A stretch of DNA of 44,531 bases. Origin: a bacterium. GTDB taxonomy: Bacteria; CAIWAD01. The notes beneath the pieces were generated by a model, which saw only the letters and a program-made list of their open reading frames with translations, was not told the DNA's origin and did no database searches. The position numbers and the translations under genes were made by a program. How positions within the stretch are numbered: position 1 is the first letter of the stretch; each line of letters starts with the position of its first letter. The DNA lies in contig JAUIFJ010000029.1 of the NCBI GenBank assembly GCA_030429345.1, forward strand, positions 1 to 44,531, read 5' to 3'. Shown one piece after another: positions 4,778-10,372 of the stretch.

Positions 4778-6844
4778 CTAGCGCTGCCGGCGATGGGGAT
4801 CGTGGAAGAACTGGTACTTCCACAAGGCCTGATCCCGGTGGCACAGAGCGCAGACCTGGTCCTGGCTGGTCTTCTTCAGGAAAGCCACGCTGCGATCATG
4901 CGGCCCTTCCGGACCGGATCCCATATGGGGATCGTGGCATTCGGAGCATTGCACTCGAAGGGAACTCAGACCGGCGCTTTCCACCAGGGCCCGAAGACTG
5001 TCCGGGAATTCCGGATGCGCCCAGGCGCGGGGAACCCGCTGACTGCCGTTCTCGTCGTGGTGGCAGATCAGGCATTGGCGATTGTCGCGGCTCCATTGTG
5101 CCGGGTCCATTTCCCTGGAGCCGGCCAGCCAGCTCGCAGCCTGCAGGAGACTGTCCGGATCTGAAGGAAGCAGGGCCTGCAGGATCAGCTGGTCCGTTGC
5201 GGCGCGATGCGGCTGGTGACACTGGGCGCAAGCTCCCTTGCCCGCCTCCGAATGCAGGCTGCCCTGAATGGCTGCCTGCTCATGATGACAGCGTAGACAG
5301 AGCGCGCCTTCGCGGTTGTCCTCCTTGATGAACGCCGCTTCGCCGGGCAGTTCCAGGCCCGCCTTCCAGGCGTGATCCATCGGACTCCAGCGATGGGGAT
5401 CGTGGCAATGCTCGCAGGCCAGCAACAGCTCTTCGTCCCGGGGCGCGGGAGGCCCGACCAGCGTGCCCGGTAGCTCCATTTCCTCCGTCAACAGCACCCC
5501 GATGGAATGACTGTGCCGGCCCAGGCCCTGCAGTTCGCCGTGCCCTTCTTCCCCGGACAGATGACAGCTGAGGCAGAGCGCGCTCGCCGCGCTGGGGGCG
5601 GATGCGGTCTTCCCGACCGTATACGGAGCGGGACCGTGGCTTGTATGACAATTGCTGCAGCGCCAGGCCTCCTGGTCCCCGCTGCGGACGAAAAGCCCCT
5701 CCGCGGGCCCATGGGGGGAATCGAGCACGGGTGCCTGTTCGGTGTGGCAGGCCATGCACAGGCCCTGGTCGGCCTGGTCCGGCAGGCGCAGGAAACTGGT
5801 CGAGGGATTCCCATCCTCGTCGCCGTCCGCCAGCTGGCTGTGATCCAGGGACCAGCGGTGGGGATCGTGGCAGCTCAGGCAGGTCACGCGCCCACCATCA
5901 AGCGGCAGCCCGGCGGCCTGGGCGAGCACTTCCTGTCGCACGCCCAGGGGATGCCCCCAGTGGTCGAAGCCCGTGGCCGGGCCGTCCAGCTGGTGGCAGG
6001 TGAGACAACGGGCATCCTCGCCATCGCCGGCCGGCTGCAGGGCCGTCGGCCAGAGATCGGGCCCGGCCGCCTCGTGCATGGCGTGGCAGACCAGGCAGGC
6101 ATCCCCCCCGGTCTCGGCCAGCCGCGGCAGCTCGGGCGTGTCGGACTGGCTGAAGTCGTGATCGCTGAAGAGCAGCTCCTGCTGATCCGTGTGACAAGTC
6201 ATGCAGAGGGTCGCCGTCGGCTCGCCGGCCGGCACCCGCAGGGCCTTTTCCCCGCGGTGCATGCGGTGGCAGCTCAGGCATTCGACCGTGTCGGCGGGCA
6301 CGGAGTGGAAACCGGCCTCCAGCACCACCGTCTGGTCCATGCGCACGTGCAGGGGGTGGTTGAAGAACTCGTCGCCGTGATCCGAGTGACAGCTCATGCA
6401 GAGAGTCGAGCCGCGCACCTCTTCCCTCAGGAAGGGTTCATAGCTGACCGCACTTGCCATGGCACGGGTATGCGGCGTGTGACAACTTCCACAGTAGATC
6501 CTGCCGTCCAGGTCCAGGGGAAGATCCCCGACGGGATCGCCCTCCTGAGGCGCCGTCATGTGCGGCTCGTGTTCCAGAAACGAGAGCCGGGAGTCCACGA
6601 CATAGCCGTCATGGCAGGACCAGCACATGTCTTCGGAGCTGACGCGGCTTTCCAGTCCTTCGATCAGCAGTCTGCATTCCGTCGGAGGAAGGGTCGGCTC
6701 CAGCGCCTTGTACTCGTCGTCCCAGCTGATGTGGCAGATCACGCATTCCTGCGAGCGGTCGATCCGCCCCTGCGCGGCAAGGCTGCCGGCAAGGAGCGTG
6801 CTGCACAGGAGAACTCCCGCGAGCAGGCGGAGAGAAGGCTTCAT
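4778..6844 (-). CDS. 18-haem periplasmic/extracellular cytochrome c
   Basis: 688 aa with a Sec signal peptide (about 1-24, ending SLAAQ) and 18 CxxCH haem sites spread along the whole chain: CVICH, CWSCH, CGSCH, CMSCH, CLSCH, CMTCH, CLVCH, CLTCH, CLSCH, CMACH, CSNCH, CLSCH, CEHCH, CLRCH, CAQCH, CLICH, CSECH, CALCH. Many are followed by DPH or xPH, as in doubled-CXXCH domains, and many distal His residues are available as second axial ligands. Start at 6844 overlaps the stop of the NHL gene by ATGA, so the two are translationally coupled. It is the last gene of the three-gene cytochrome operon. Probable role: electron wire or store between the inner-membrane cytochrome and an outer acceptor. 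The acceptor is not evident, and no outer-membrane porin is encoded beside it. Confidence 0.9.
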   Translation of the reverse strand: MKPSLRLLAGVLLCSTLLAGSLAAQGRIDRSQECVICHISWDDEYKALEPTLPPTECRLLIEGLESRVSSEDMCWSCHDGYVVDSRLSFLEHEPHMTAPQEGDPVGDLPLDLDGRIYCGSCHTPHTRAMASAVSYEPFLREEVRGSTLCMSCHSDHGDEFFNHPLHVRMDQTVVLEAGFHSVPADTVECLSCHRMHRGEKALRVPAGEPTATLCMTCHTDQQELLFSDHDFSQSDTPELPRLAETGGDACLVCHAMHEAAGPDLWPTALQPAGDGEDARCLTCHQLDGPATGFDHWGHPLGVRQEVLAQAAGLPLDGGRVTCLSCHDPHRWSLDHSQLADGDEDGNPSTSFLRLPDQADQGLCMACHTEQAPVLDSPHGPAEGLFVRSGDQEAWRCSNCHTSHGPAPYTVGKTASAPSAASALCLSCHLSGEEGHGELQGLGRHSHSIGVLLTEEMELPGTLVGPPAPRDEELLLACEHCHDPHRWSPMDHAWKAGLELPGEAAFIKEDNREGALCLRCHHEQAAIQGSLHSEAGKGACAQCHQPHRAATDQLILQALLPSDPDSLLQAASWLAGSREMDPAQWSRDNRQCLICHHDENGSQRVPRAWAHPEFPDSLRALVESAGLSSLRVQCSECHDPHMGSGPEGPHDRSVAFLKKTSQDQVCALCHRDQALWKYQFFHDPHRRQR

Positions 6845-7794
6845 GGCGTCCTCCCGTCCGGAATCGCCGGCAGATCGACCAGGTATACCGTGCTGTCCCG
6901 GCTGTCGACGAACCAGCATCGGCCTTCTTCGGCCGCTACGATCGCCGTCGGGCCTTCCATCCGCCAGGGCTTTCCGTCCAGCGCCAGGGCCCCGACCGGC
7001 TCGGCGAATCCGTTGTAGGCGTATACGATGCCCGTGTAGCCATCGCTGACCAGCACCTGGCCGTCGGCAAGGCGGGCGCAGCCCTTGGGCCGGTAGAGCT
7101 CCCCTTCGGCCGTGCCGAAGGTTCCGAAAGATCCTTTGTAGGCACCAAGCAGTGTCAGGTCCTGGACCCGTCCGCCCAGAACATCCACGACCAGCATGCC
7201 CTTCGCATAGGCTGTGATCATGCCCGGGTAGGTGAATTCCCCGGCCAGCGAGCCGGGCCTGCCGGGATCGTCGGAAAAGGCGGCGGCCGCAAGAGGCGGA
7301 GACCAGTCGCGGGCGTCCTTGCCGAAGGATCGGTGTATACGCCCTTCCCGATCCAGGACCAGCAGACGGTGATTGTCGTTGTCACTCACAAGCAGGAGGT
7401 CTTCCAGGAAGGCCACGTCCACTGGATCACAGACCGACGGCAGCGGGATCTGCTTCTTCAGTGAGCCGTCGAGTCCGAGCAGGAACAGGCTGCCCGCGTC
7501 GGGATCGCTGACCAGGACTTCCCCTTCGCGAATTGCCACACCCAGCGGGGTGCGGAACTCCGGAAGCGTGATTCGCCGCGCTTCCTTGCCGGGCGCCAGG
7601 ACCAGCAGTCTGCGATTGAGACCGTCGACGACCCAGGCCTTGCCTCGGGCATCCACGGCAAGGTCACTCGGATGCCGCAGGCCCTCTTGCCAGCTGGAGA
7701 GGATCCTCACCGGCAGCGAGGCCGCGGAAGCCCACCCGGCAAGGAGCAGGACCAGCAGCAGCCGGCTAATGGGATGGGGGTAGATAGAATTCAT
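6841..7794 (-). CDS. Exported NHL-repeat beta-propeller protein
   Basis: 317 aa. A signal peptide spans about 1-25 (RLLLVLLLAGWASAA). Repeats of the NHL type follow: HPSDLAVDARGKAWVVDGLN, PLGVAIREGEVLVSDPD, DPVDVAFLEDLLLVSDNDNH, RPKGCARLADGQVLVSDGY and GPTAIVAAEEGRCWFVDSRD, giving a six-bladed propeller with pseudo-Asp-box endings. The start lies 29 bp inside the 3' end of the c-b-c cytochrome gene, and the stop overlaps the 18-haem gene by 4 bp. It is therefore a fixed part of this operon. NHL proteins recur in gene clusters for multihaem cytochromes and extracellular electron conduits; here it is presumably a scaffold or docking partner. There are no Cys haem motifs. Confidence 0.85.
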   Translation of the reverse strand: MNSIYPHPISRLLLVLLLAGWASAASLPVRILSSWQEGLRHPSDLAVDARGKAWVVDGLNRRLLVLAPGKEARRITLPEFRTPLGVAIREGEVLVSDPDAGSLFLLGLDGSLKKQIPLPSVCDPVDVAFLEDLLLVSDNDNHRLLVLDREGRIHRSFGKDARDWSPPLAAAAFSDDPGRPGSLAGEFTYPGMITAYAKGMLVVDVLGGRVQDLTLLGAYKGSFGTFGTAEGELYRPKGCARLADGQVLVSDGYTGIVYAYNGFAEPVGALALDGKPWRMEGPTAIVAAEEGRCWFVDSRDSTVYLVDLPAIPDGRTP

Positions 7795-10372
7795 CGTAGT
7801 CCGTTACAGTGGCGGCCAGGGATTCGCTTTGCAGGTGCTTCACGCGCTCTTCGTCGAAGCCGAGCCTGCGGAAGTCCATGCGACCGTCCTGCTTGTGGCA
7901 GTCGGTACACTCCAGGGTCATCTGTTCCATGGGTATCAACGCCTTGTGGAAGGTGTCGTCGGCGCGTTTCTTCAGTTCCTCATCGTCCAGGCTCTCGCGC
8001 TCGGCCAGCAGGCGGCGCACGTCTTCGGACTGCTGGTCGTTGAAAAGAGCGCCTTCCGCAGTGCTCAGCGTGATGTAGCTCGTGAAGTTGAGATCGCCCT
8101 TGCTGGGAGATTCATGGATGCCGTAGGGTTCGCCAGGCTCCCCGTCCTTCGAAATACGAAGGTCGGCCCAAACGAATTCCGGGTTCGCTTCGGACGACTT
8201 CTCATGGTGGCATGTCACACAGGTCATGAAGCGGCTGTGCATGTTCAGCGCGGCCCTCTTGCGAAGGCTCTCGCCGTGCGGCAGCATGGAGTGGCAGGCC
8301 AGGCACTCGGAACGGCGCAGGTTCGGATCGATCTGGATCACGGGAATCGTGCTGTGGAAACGGCCATAGCGATAGTCGTCATCCAGGTGGATGGCGGCAG
8401 CCTGGTAGGAGGGATCGCCGTCCGGAATTCCCAGGTCGACAAGCGATTTCTCCTCCTGGAACTGCTTGTAGTTCGGATCCAGGGTCTTGACGTACTCCGT
8501 GAAGGCCCAGCCCATGAAGACGCAGGTCATCGATGTCAGCAGAAGAATGACCAGTCCGGTGGATTTCATGAACGACCGGCGGCTGGAACCGCTGACGAAC
8601 CAGCGGTCCTTCGGATCGGCCTCGCCCACCAGCTGCTCGCGGGGAAGGAAGGTGGTCTTGTTGTGATCCTCGATCTCATTGAGCAGGCCGGCGTGCTCGT
8701 CTTCCATCTCGTGCCGGTCGATGGCGCCGGTGATCCAGTCCTCGGCCATGGGGAATCGGCCCGGCTTCCAGTTGACATTCCAGAAATGCCAGATCACAAT
8801 GGTTCCGACGGCCAGGATCGCCTCCAGCGAGTGCACGAGCCTGGAAATGTCTACGATGTACTTGTTGCCCAGGTGCTCGAACCAAAGGATCACACCGGTC
8901 GCCGTCATGACGACGCTTCCCCATGCGAAGCCCCAGTATTCGAGTTTCTCGGCATAGCCGAAATAACCGAAGAGCGGCCGTTCCTTGCGCAGGCGCAGCA
9001 TCCACAGCAGGTTCTGCCAGGCCAGCACGGCATCCGAGGGCTTGGGAATCATCTGCATGATCAGGCTGCGGCCGCGCTTCGTGAAGATCGCCACGTAGAT
9101 GTGATACACACCGATGACCGTGATCAGGATCGCCGCGGCGCGGTGGGCCCAGGCCCGCGCGACCAGCAGGGAGGTATGATCCTCGCCGATGGCGAAGTAG
9201 CTTTCCGGCAGCCAAAGGATCGCGCCGGTGATCGCCAGCAGGGTGAAGCTGACGAACATCAGCACATGCGAAATGCGCTCCCCCTTGGACATGCGGAAGT
9301 AGATCCGCCGGCTGGCCGCACCATGGACCTTGGCGTGCTTCTCCGGGTTGCGGCGGACTTCCCGCCAGCGCGCGATCGTATCCAGCAGGTTGTGCAAGGC
9401 CATGACGCCCAGCAGGCCGATGATCAGGATCACATAGAACCAGAGCACGATCTTCAGTCCATAGGCCTGCCAGCCCTCGTACAGGTCATGCATGGAACCG
9501 GTCGTGGAGAACTCGACACTCGCGCCGTCATGACAGCCGATCGTGCTGCAAGTCTTCTGCCGGTTGTTGTAGTGCACCATGGAGCGCAGGTCGTTCTCTG
9601 CGAAGATGCTGTGATTGCCGTGGCAGTCGTTGCATACGGGACTGCGGCTGTCGCCCAGGCGGAAACCGCGGCCGTGAAAGCTCTTCAGGAAGCCGCCCAC
9701 GATGGTCTCGTGCACGGGAACGCCCAGGCTGTCTGTCCGCAGATCATCGTCGGAGTGGCAGCGGACACAGGCGTTGTAGTTCTGCCGGGTCTTCCAGAAC
9801 TCGTCCTCACCCAGATGCAGGGCCATGTGATCCAGGGTCCGATCGAGGCCCTTGAAGTCGTCGTGACACGCCGTGCACTTGGATTCCGCGTCCAGGAATA
9901 GTTGCGGAATGTCCCGGGAGTAGCTGGTGTTGTGGTGGCAATCCTTGCAGACGGGCTTGTCCGCATCGCTGGGTTCGCCGCTCTTCTGTCCGTGAACCGA
10001 CTCGGCCAGTTTCAGTGTCACATCCCGATGACTGAAGGTGTCGCCGGTATATGGATCCACCACGTGACAGGCCGTGCCGCAATCGACGGGCTGCACGGGG
10101 GTCGCATGGGGAACACGGTCAATATCCGTGTGACATTCCCGACACGACAAGGCTCCGTGAACCGAGTCTGCATAGTGGTCTTCCCGGACCTGGAAGTTGT
10201 GCACGCCCGTTGTGTCGTTTTCCACCGCCAGCCAGGGCAGGCCATGGCAGAGCATGCAGTTTTCCGGATCCAGCTGCCGGGCATGGGCGGGTGTTGCCTG
10301 GCTAAGCAGCAGGCCCACCAGGGCTGCCAGCATCCATAGCCGATGACAGGATGGTGCAGGACTTGTTGGCAT
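7766..10372 (-). CDS. CbcL-like tripartite c-b-c cytochrome, quinol-linked
   Basis: 868 aa. Signal/anchor at about 10-31, then eight haem c sites: CMLCH 39-43, CRECH 77, CGTACH 98 (a CX3CH site), CKDCH 142, CTACH 166, CVRCH 202, CNDCH 247 and CSTIGCH 275 (a CX4CH site). Next comes a cytochrome b/FdnI-like membrane part with helices at about 309-327, 368-387, 408-428, 482-499 and 513-531, and His369, 410, 424, 514 and 529 as likely haem b ligands. A further helix (602-622) leads to a second exported domain with CLACH 690, CVTCH 718 and CTDCH 822. Geobacter CbcL joins a multihaem c domain to an FdnI-like b domain and oxidises menaquinol. The extra C-terminal trihaem domain is a difference. Start at 10372 (GAGG upstream). 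First gene of the operon. Confidence 0.88.
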   Translation of the reverse strand: MPTSPAPSCHRLWMLAALVGLLLSQATPAHARQLDPENCMLCHGLPWLAVENDTTGVHNFQVREDHYADSVHGALSCRECHTDIDRVPHATPVQPVDCGTACHVVDPYTGDTFSHRDVTLKLAESVHGQKSGEPSDADKPVCKDCHHNTSYSRDIPQLFLDAESKCTACHDDFKGLDRTLDHMALHLGEDEFWKTRQNYNACVRCHSDDDLRTDSLGVPVHETIVGGFLKSFHGRGFRLGDSRSPVCNDCHGNHSIFAENDLRSMVHYNNRQKTCSTIGCHDGASVEFSTTGSMHDLYEGWQAYGLKIVLWFYVILIIGLLGVMALHNLLDTIARWREVRRNPEKHAKVHGAASRRIYFRMSKGERISHVLMFVSFTLLAITGAILWLPESYFAIGEDHTSLLVARAWAHRAAAILITVIGVYHIYVAIFTKRGRSLIMQMIPKPSDAVLAWQNLLWMLRLRKERPLFGYFGYAEKLEYWGFAWGSVVMTATGVILWFEHLGNKYIVDISRLVHSLEAILAVGTIVIWHFWNVNWKPGRFPMAEDWITGAIDRHEMEDEHAGLLNEIEDHNKTTFLPREQLVGEADPKDRWFVSGSSRRSFMKSTGLVILLLTSMTCVFMGWAFTEYVKTLDPNYKQFQEEKSLVDLGIPDGDPSYQAAAIHLDDDYRYGRFHSTIPVIQIDPNLRRSECLACHSMLPHGESLRKRAALNMHSRFMTCVTCHHEKSSEANPEFVWADLRISKDGEPGEPYGIHESPSKGDLNFTSYITLSTAEGALFNDQQSEDVRRLLAERESLDDEELKKRADDTFHKALIPMEQMTLECTDCHKQDGRMDFRRLGFDEERVKHLQSESLAATVTDYDEFYLPPSH

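Follow-up and report, generated by a model that had tools for sequence, protein, structure and literature searches.

A probable single-chain quinone:cytochrome c oxidoreductase combining octahaem c, di-haem b and trihaem c modules

Analysis of the window, a bacterial contig of 44,531 nucleotides (JAUIFJ010000029.1, assembly GCA_030429345.1), identified one complete minus-strand gene at 10372-7766 (start codon ATG at 10372; last base of the stop codon at 7766) that encodes an 868-aa cytochrome with 11 haem-c motifs and six predicted membrane helices, in which an octahaem c part (8c), a di-haem b part and a trihaem c part (3c) are fused in that order. Judged from sequence comparison, this protein is likely to unite in one chain the three subunits of an inner-membrane quinone:cytochrome c oxidoreductase that feeds, or is fed by, an extracellular electron-transfer chain, and it probably passes electrons between the inner membrane and a chain of haem proteins leading outwards. 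The complex itself is of a known kind, and what appears new is the complete single-chain fusion. The three parts are known in kind, but what the third part is and its joining with the other two in one chain seem to be undescribed: neither a published 8c-b-3c fusion nor a name for the trihaem 3c protein was found in the literature searched, outside which most subscription papers lie.

The genome has one copy of the fused gene, and all features given here lie on the minus strand. The chain starts with an N-terminal export signal (residues 1-31; positions 10280-10372) consisting of a hydrophobic stretch and a helix at residues 9-25, and continues into a periplasmic octahaem c domain (residues 32-300; 9473-10279) with CxxCH motifs at residues 39, 77, 142, 166, 202 and 247, a CxxxCH motif at 98 and a CxxxxCH motif at 275. 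A linker helix and an FdnI-like di-haem b domain (together 8768-9472) are followed by a cytoplasmic linker that joins the b domain to the sixth helix and contains the fusion point (residues 536-595; 8588-8767), by the sixth membrane helix itself (residues 596-631; 8480-8587), which sits where separate 3c proteins have their N-terminal anchor, and by a periplasmic trihaem domain related to octahaem tetrathionate reductase (OTR), with three CxxCH motifs at residues 690, 718 and 822 (residues 632-868; 7769-8479). Shuffling the fused protein 2000 times gave a mean of 0.11 and a maximum of 3 haem-c motifs in comparison to the 11 present, and all 11, both atypical ones included, were kept in homologues from other lineages. 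Pfam matched the N-terminal part to cytochrome c7/c3-type families and residues 360-528 to Ni_hydr_CYTB, and NCBIfam returned a formate dehydrogenase gamma match below cut-off. No NapC/NirT domain, the quinol site of CymA and ImcH types, scored over cut-off in the fused protein, whose quinone-type domain was FdnI-like.

The full chain was modelled with AlphaFold (mean pLDDT 72, with weak stretches at residues 27-89 and 636-680), which gave six long helices, at residues 301-341, 363-385, 399-430, 473-497, 504-535 and 596-631, of which the second to fifth form the b domain. The best solved relative of the model was FdnI (1KQF chain C) with a target TM-score of 0.79, and the sequence match of the b domain to solved FdnI was weak (E = 0.009). 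The 8c-b-3c order put forward in the original prediction was borne out by the haem motifs (8 + 3), the Pfam b domain and the FdnI fold, and the additional membrane helix that it placed after the b domain was recovered as the predicted helix at 596-631. Loops rich in K/R were found after helix 1 (5 versus 1 acidic residues) and helix 3 (8 versus 2 acidic), and K/R was absent from the short loops that follow helices 2 and 4. Helix 5 is followed by a long, acidic loop, whose charge by itself gives no side, and this loop was placed in the cytoplasm because of the helix count and the periplasmic haem domains at both ends.

Alignment of homologues revealed exactly 16 invariant histidines in the c domains (n=14), eight proximal and eight able to serve as distal ligands (residues 72, 89, 115, 127, 182, 233, 254 and 295), four in the b domains (n=18; His369, His410, His514 and His529) and six in the 3c domains (n=19), namely 694, 722 and 826 plus the distal candidates 673, 699 and 712. 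Thirteen six-coordinate bis-His haems are therefore predicted, and complete ligand sets on all of them would fit relay haems rather than a catalytic centre. Helix directions suggest that His410/His514 lie near the periplasm and His369/His529 near the cytoplasm, as in FdnI, and from the helix positions and this placing of the b ligands both c domains are predicted to be periplasmic. For the 3c domain the same location, and with it the export originally proposed for the C-terminal part, follows from separate homologues that bear their own N-terminal signals or anchors, as well as from the loop charges and the helix count; a cytoplasmic C-terminal part was looked for among the homologues, which instead put 3c in the periplasm. 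The idea that haem c brackets the quinol site accordingly holds along the sequence but fails in space, as both c domains are on the same periplasmic side. Modelled alone, the 3c domain gave an unusable prediction (pLDDT 49). A possible twin-arginine signal before the sixth helix (SRRSFMK) was considered and attributed to chance, because the motif was absent from 18 of 18 other 3c sequences and haem-c domains mature after Sec export.

Fused full-length homologues were found in three other genomes of the family (G001-G003) at 46-48% identity to the window protein, so that all four family genomes in the collection, where the phylum comprises five genomes, carry the full fusion. A second full fusion of 897 aa and 11 haems was located in a distant genome, G454 (L107:7089-9782), and a frameshift or assembly artefact was rejected because four genomes share the fusion and this fifth has it independently. 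An overlapping plus-strand ORF of 690 aa (7829-9901) was dismissed as an unsupported mirror of the high-GC coding strand. Searches with 3c profiles covered 386 and 297 genomes, and reading of the resulting loci showed many lineages in which 8c, b and 3c have a gene each; in most, these genes are neighbours, and an NHL propeller gene and one for a 16-38-haem cytochrome usually come after them. The architecture search brought up no standard described family for the fused form, although unfused versions of each part are widespread. In Neomarinimicrobiota 8c and b are fused and 3c is the next gene; G358 has a c-b fusion, and b-3c fusions occur in G174, G587, G631, G578, G677 and G454, a list that leaves out G623, whose ORF equals that of G578 in size. 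Immediately upstream of the fused gene, G001 and G002 also possess a separate, more distant set of 8c, b and 3c genes. A scan of named genomes with the single fused protein as query gave no match; with an alignment as query it gave 12 named loci. Named fused loci are DYSB01000006.1 (G003) and CAIWAD010000124.1 (G002).

Phylogenetic analysis of the b domain grouped the window's family with the Neomarinimicrobiota c-b proteins (support 100/100) and, on well-supported branches, required no fewer than two changes to account for the full fusion and no fewer than three for b-3c fusion, in a tree where several end branches are long and deeper placement is unsure. By this comparison the full fusion of G454 is taken to have arisen independently of that in the window's family.

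Gene mapping around the fused gene identified an exported NHL-repeat beta-propeller of 317 aa (6841-7794, minus strand), the first 29 bases of which are shared with the end of the fused gene, and a paired-CXXCH cytochrome of 688 aa with 18 haems and an export signal (4778-6844, minus strand), whose ATG at 6844 gives a 4-base ATGA overlap with the NHL gene. An alternative start of this ORF at 6919 corresponds to 713 aa. In most related clusters 3c is likewise followed by an NHL gene and a large multihaem cytochrome gene, most of these cytochromes having 16 to 38 haems; two loci (L090 and L115) differ in what comes after 3c, and L107 differs in gene order. In G003 and Neomarinimicrobiota the genes that follow encode a second NHL-type protein, a barrel-like protein and a 12-haem cytochrome. 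No porin-like protein was present among the annotated neighbours of the fused gene in the window, and the neighbouring genes examined encoded no molybdoenzyme subunit. Another contig of this genome, C65, carries genes for a 10-haem, a tandem rhodanese-like, an 8-haem, a barrel-like and a 12-haem protein together, where the barrel assignment is based on homology between lineages, sequence pattern and C-terminus, without a family model match. The window is thereby interpreted as the inner half of the set, and its putative outer-membrane part as residing on C65.

By homology we infer a route from the quinone pool through the b haems and the periplasmic c haems to a multihaem chain. Oxidation of menaquinol, or reduction of menaquinone, would take place near the haem b on the cytoplasmic side (His369/His529), the side on which the FdnI fold has its quinone site, and electrons would move by way of the periplasmic-side haem b (His410/His514) to c haems in the periplasm, belonging to one c module or to both. 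From there they could reach the neighbouring 18-haem cytochrome and then the outer-membrane barrel and 12-haem set that relatives have in the same cluster and this genome has on C65. In this scheme 3c would relay electrons and serve as a docking arm without being an enzyme, and fusion would fix the stoichiometry of the three parts. The direction may be export or uptake, with Fe(III), sulfur or polysulfide as candidate final substrates. This oxidoreductase reading is favoured because the order 8c, b, 3c, NHL and multihaem cytochrome is found in several distant lineages, because of the recurrent fusions, the invariant ligands and the FdnI fold, and because relatives' clusters and C65 supply the rest of the chain and a published proposal for 8c exists in a porin-cytochrome (pcc) cluster.

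That pcc cluster belongs to Desulfurobacterium thermolithotrophum, for which an octahaem membrane cytochrome has been proposed to serve quinone/quinol cycling (PMC4245776, PMC3368423). The published octahaem proteins are Dester_0351 and Theam_0871, and in the parts of the Shi et al. 2014 account that deal with the pcc cluster (PMC4245776) only the 8c protein is discussed, with no mention of a b subunit, a 3c subunit or a fusion. Our genome of this species (G014) has a cluster of a 419-aa porin-like protein followed by 8c, b, 3c, NHL and a 28-haem cytochrome. Its 8c has the six CxxCH and two atypical motifs described for Dester_0351 and was matched to that protein by motif pattern and genome rather than by locus tag, with 22 histidines counted versus 24 published. 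The 8c, b and 3c proteins of the split cluster are homologous to the window domains, and the window shares their order and the NHL and large paired-CXXCH cytochrome genes that come after them, but they are three subunits from three genes where the window, G001-G003 and G454 have one chain.

Formate dehydrogenase N gamma (FdnI) has the same four-helix fold and four His ligands as the window b domain, which differs in belonging to a fused haem-c chain. CbcBA of Geobacter, with c (CbcA) and b (CbcB) inner-membrane subunits, is by description similar to the separate 8c and b pair, but its Cbc5 cluster (CbcA-E) is reported without a trihaem protein, an NHL protein or a cytochrome of the 18-haem type (PMC10553843, PMC11434368). 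Cbc4, also compared by description, has an iron-sulfur subunit and the 8c-b-3c module has none. The Geobacter ext cluster (rhodanese, porin, b and c) was set aside as an analogy only, as its b protein is described as a complex III core homologue together with a Rieske protein.

The resemblance of 3c to OTR raises the alternative that the 3c part is, or belongs to, a terminal reductase for a sulfur or nitrogen compound that is reduced in the periplasm through quinol, b and 8c. OTR is the nearest relative of the 3c family among known proteins by profile comparison, as the 3c profile matched OTR 1SP3 in two stretches (E = 6e-7) and 17 of 17 3c members matched the NCBIfam OTR model TIGR04315, far below its cut-off (window 3c, 34.8 bits versus 375). 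Comparison by hhalign of 3c with the true OTR of this genome gave a probability of 97% over the first pair of motifs, and that OTR adjoins a sulfur-transport-type protein, which, together with rhodanese-like genes in relatives' clusters, would suit a reductase. The homology nevertheless spans only the stretch that carries the last three haems of OTR, with shared motifs C..CH..PH....N.H....C..CH...W and C..CH...(D)(W/F)..LG(Y/F); 3c has three motifs versus eight haems and lacks the others, among them the Lys-ligated catalytic haem, which lies outside this region in OTR. Because the catalytic part is missing and the distal ligands are complete, 3c is read as a relay: invariant histidines are available to all three haems, none of which is predicted to be open to substrate, and the companion genes are of electron-conduit types. 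A reductase role is thus considered improbable.

The c-b portion also resembles CbcL/MtoC-type proteins, themselves c-b fusions of about six helices (PMC6295460, PMC9129911), and the window protein could be seen as an ordinary cytochrome of this type with an irrelevant C-terminal addition. CbcL, MtoC and MtrH share with it an N-terminal multihaem c part, an FdnI/HydC-like di-haem b part and a quinone-pool role, but in a member of that family the chain would be expected to end with the membrane domain, whereas the window protein adds a periplasmic trihaem domain of about 237 aa after its sixth helix. CbcL-type proteins are described with 3-23 haem motifs in the N-terminal portion and a C-terminal haem domain is unreported (PMC6295460), a description that sets the CbcL family apart from the window protein, whose b domain groups with Neomarinimicrobiota c-b proteins that have 3c as the next gene. 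For MtrH/MtoC an identity of <17% to Dester_0351 is given (PMC4245776). Moreover 3c stays beside b in many lineages, as a gene or a fused domain with every ligand conserved, and its fusion to b arose repeatedly, so that an irrelevant addition is largely refuted as stated and must be regarded as very improbable. Alternatively, as the original prediction proposed alongside a possible internal circuit, the two c modules may be separate electron ports, for input and output or for two acceptors of different potential, which would make the protein a branch point. Two separately anchored periplasmic c modules are kept with one b module, conserved ligands included, in many lineages, but one linear c chain can serve a lone b unit that has one quinone site; we regard such ports as unlikely. 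Equally doubtful in our view is the broader proposal that 8c-b-3c constitutes a distinct and widespread quinone-pool complex for extracellular electron transfer, apart from CbcL/CbcBA, in which the trihaem part would be the second port and one b unit would serve two circuits.

Beyond Geobacter and Shewanella, the entry and exit of electrons at the quinone pool during extracellular respiration are still to be explained. Each neighbouring pair of parts, and the whole trio, occur in fused form; these fusions provide natural evidence that 8c, b and 3c act as one complex, and they give a place to the trihaem 3c protein. The single-chain form would be easier to purify at fixed stoichiometry and to solve structurally than the three-gene form, and the split form is present in cultured bacteria such as Desulfurobacterium, where it is usable for physiology. 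If the quinone site is cytoplasmic as in FdnI, electron uptake through this protein would build membrane potential and electron export would cost it.

A second gene encoding an octahaem c domain, an FdnI-like membrane domain and a trihaem domain in one chain (8c-b-3c) was found in genome G454, from a distant lineage (locus L107:7089-9782, minus strand; 897 aa, 11 haem motifs), and this fusion arose independently of the one in the window. The same G454 contig also carries a b-3c fusion together with a separate 8c gene. In two members of the window's family, the genes immediately upstream of the fused one are divergent versions of 8c, b and 3c, each encoded separately (L032:9941-12553 and the corresponding stretch of L033).

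Ahead of the sixth membrane helix the window's protein has a Tat-like motif, SRRSFMK (about 8561-8584, minus strand; residues near 597-604), and a motif of this kind was present in none of the other 3c sequences examined. The trihaem module apparently occurs in other settings as well: the C-terminal part of a 6-haem protein (L116:1221-2171, 316 aa), which adjoins a separate 3c gene, matches the 3c profile. In genome G174, a paired-CXXCH cytochrome of 1641 aa with 38 haem motifs adjoins the NHL gene (L086:7772-12697).

On contig C88 (L120:6447-10592), the window's own genome encodes a true homologue of octahaem tetrathionate reductase, scoring 560 bits, followed by a 7-haem anchored cytochrome, a Ni_hydr_CYTB match (ORF about 6974-7972), the sole one in the genome besides the fused protein, and a TsuA/YeeE-type sulfur-transport match. 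Set apart from the window genes, contig C65 (L121:8011-16553) carries a 10-haem cytochrome, a tandem rhodanese-like protein (at most 819 aa), an 8-haem protein, a barrel-like protein and a 12-haem cytochrome, apparently the outer half of the electron-transfer set.
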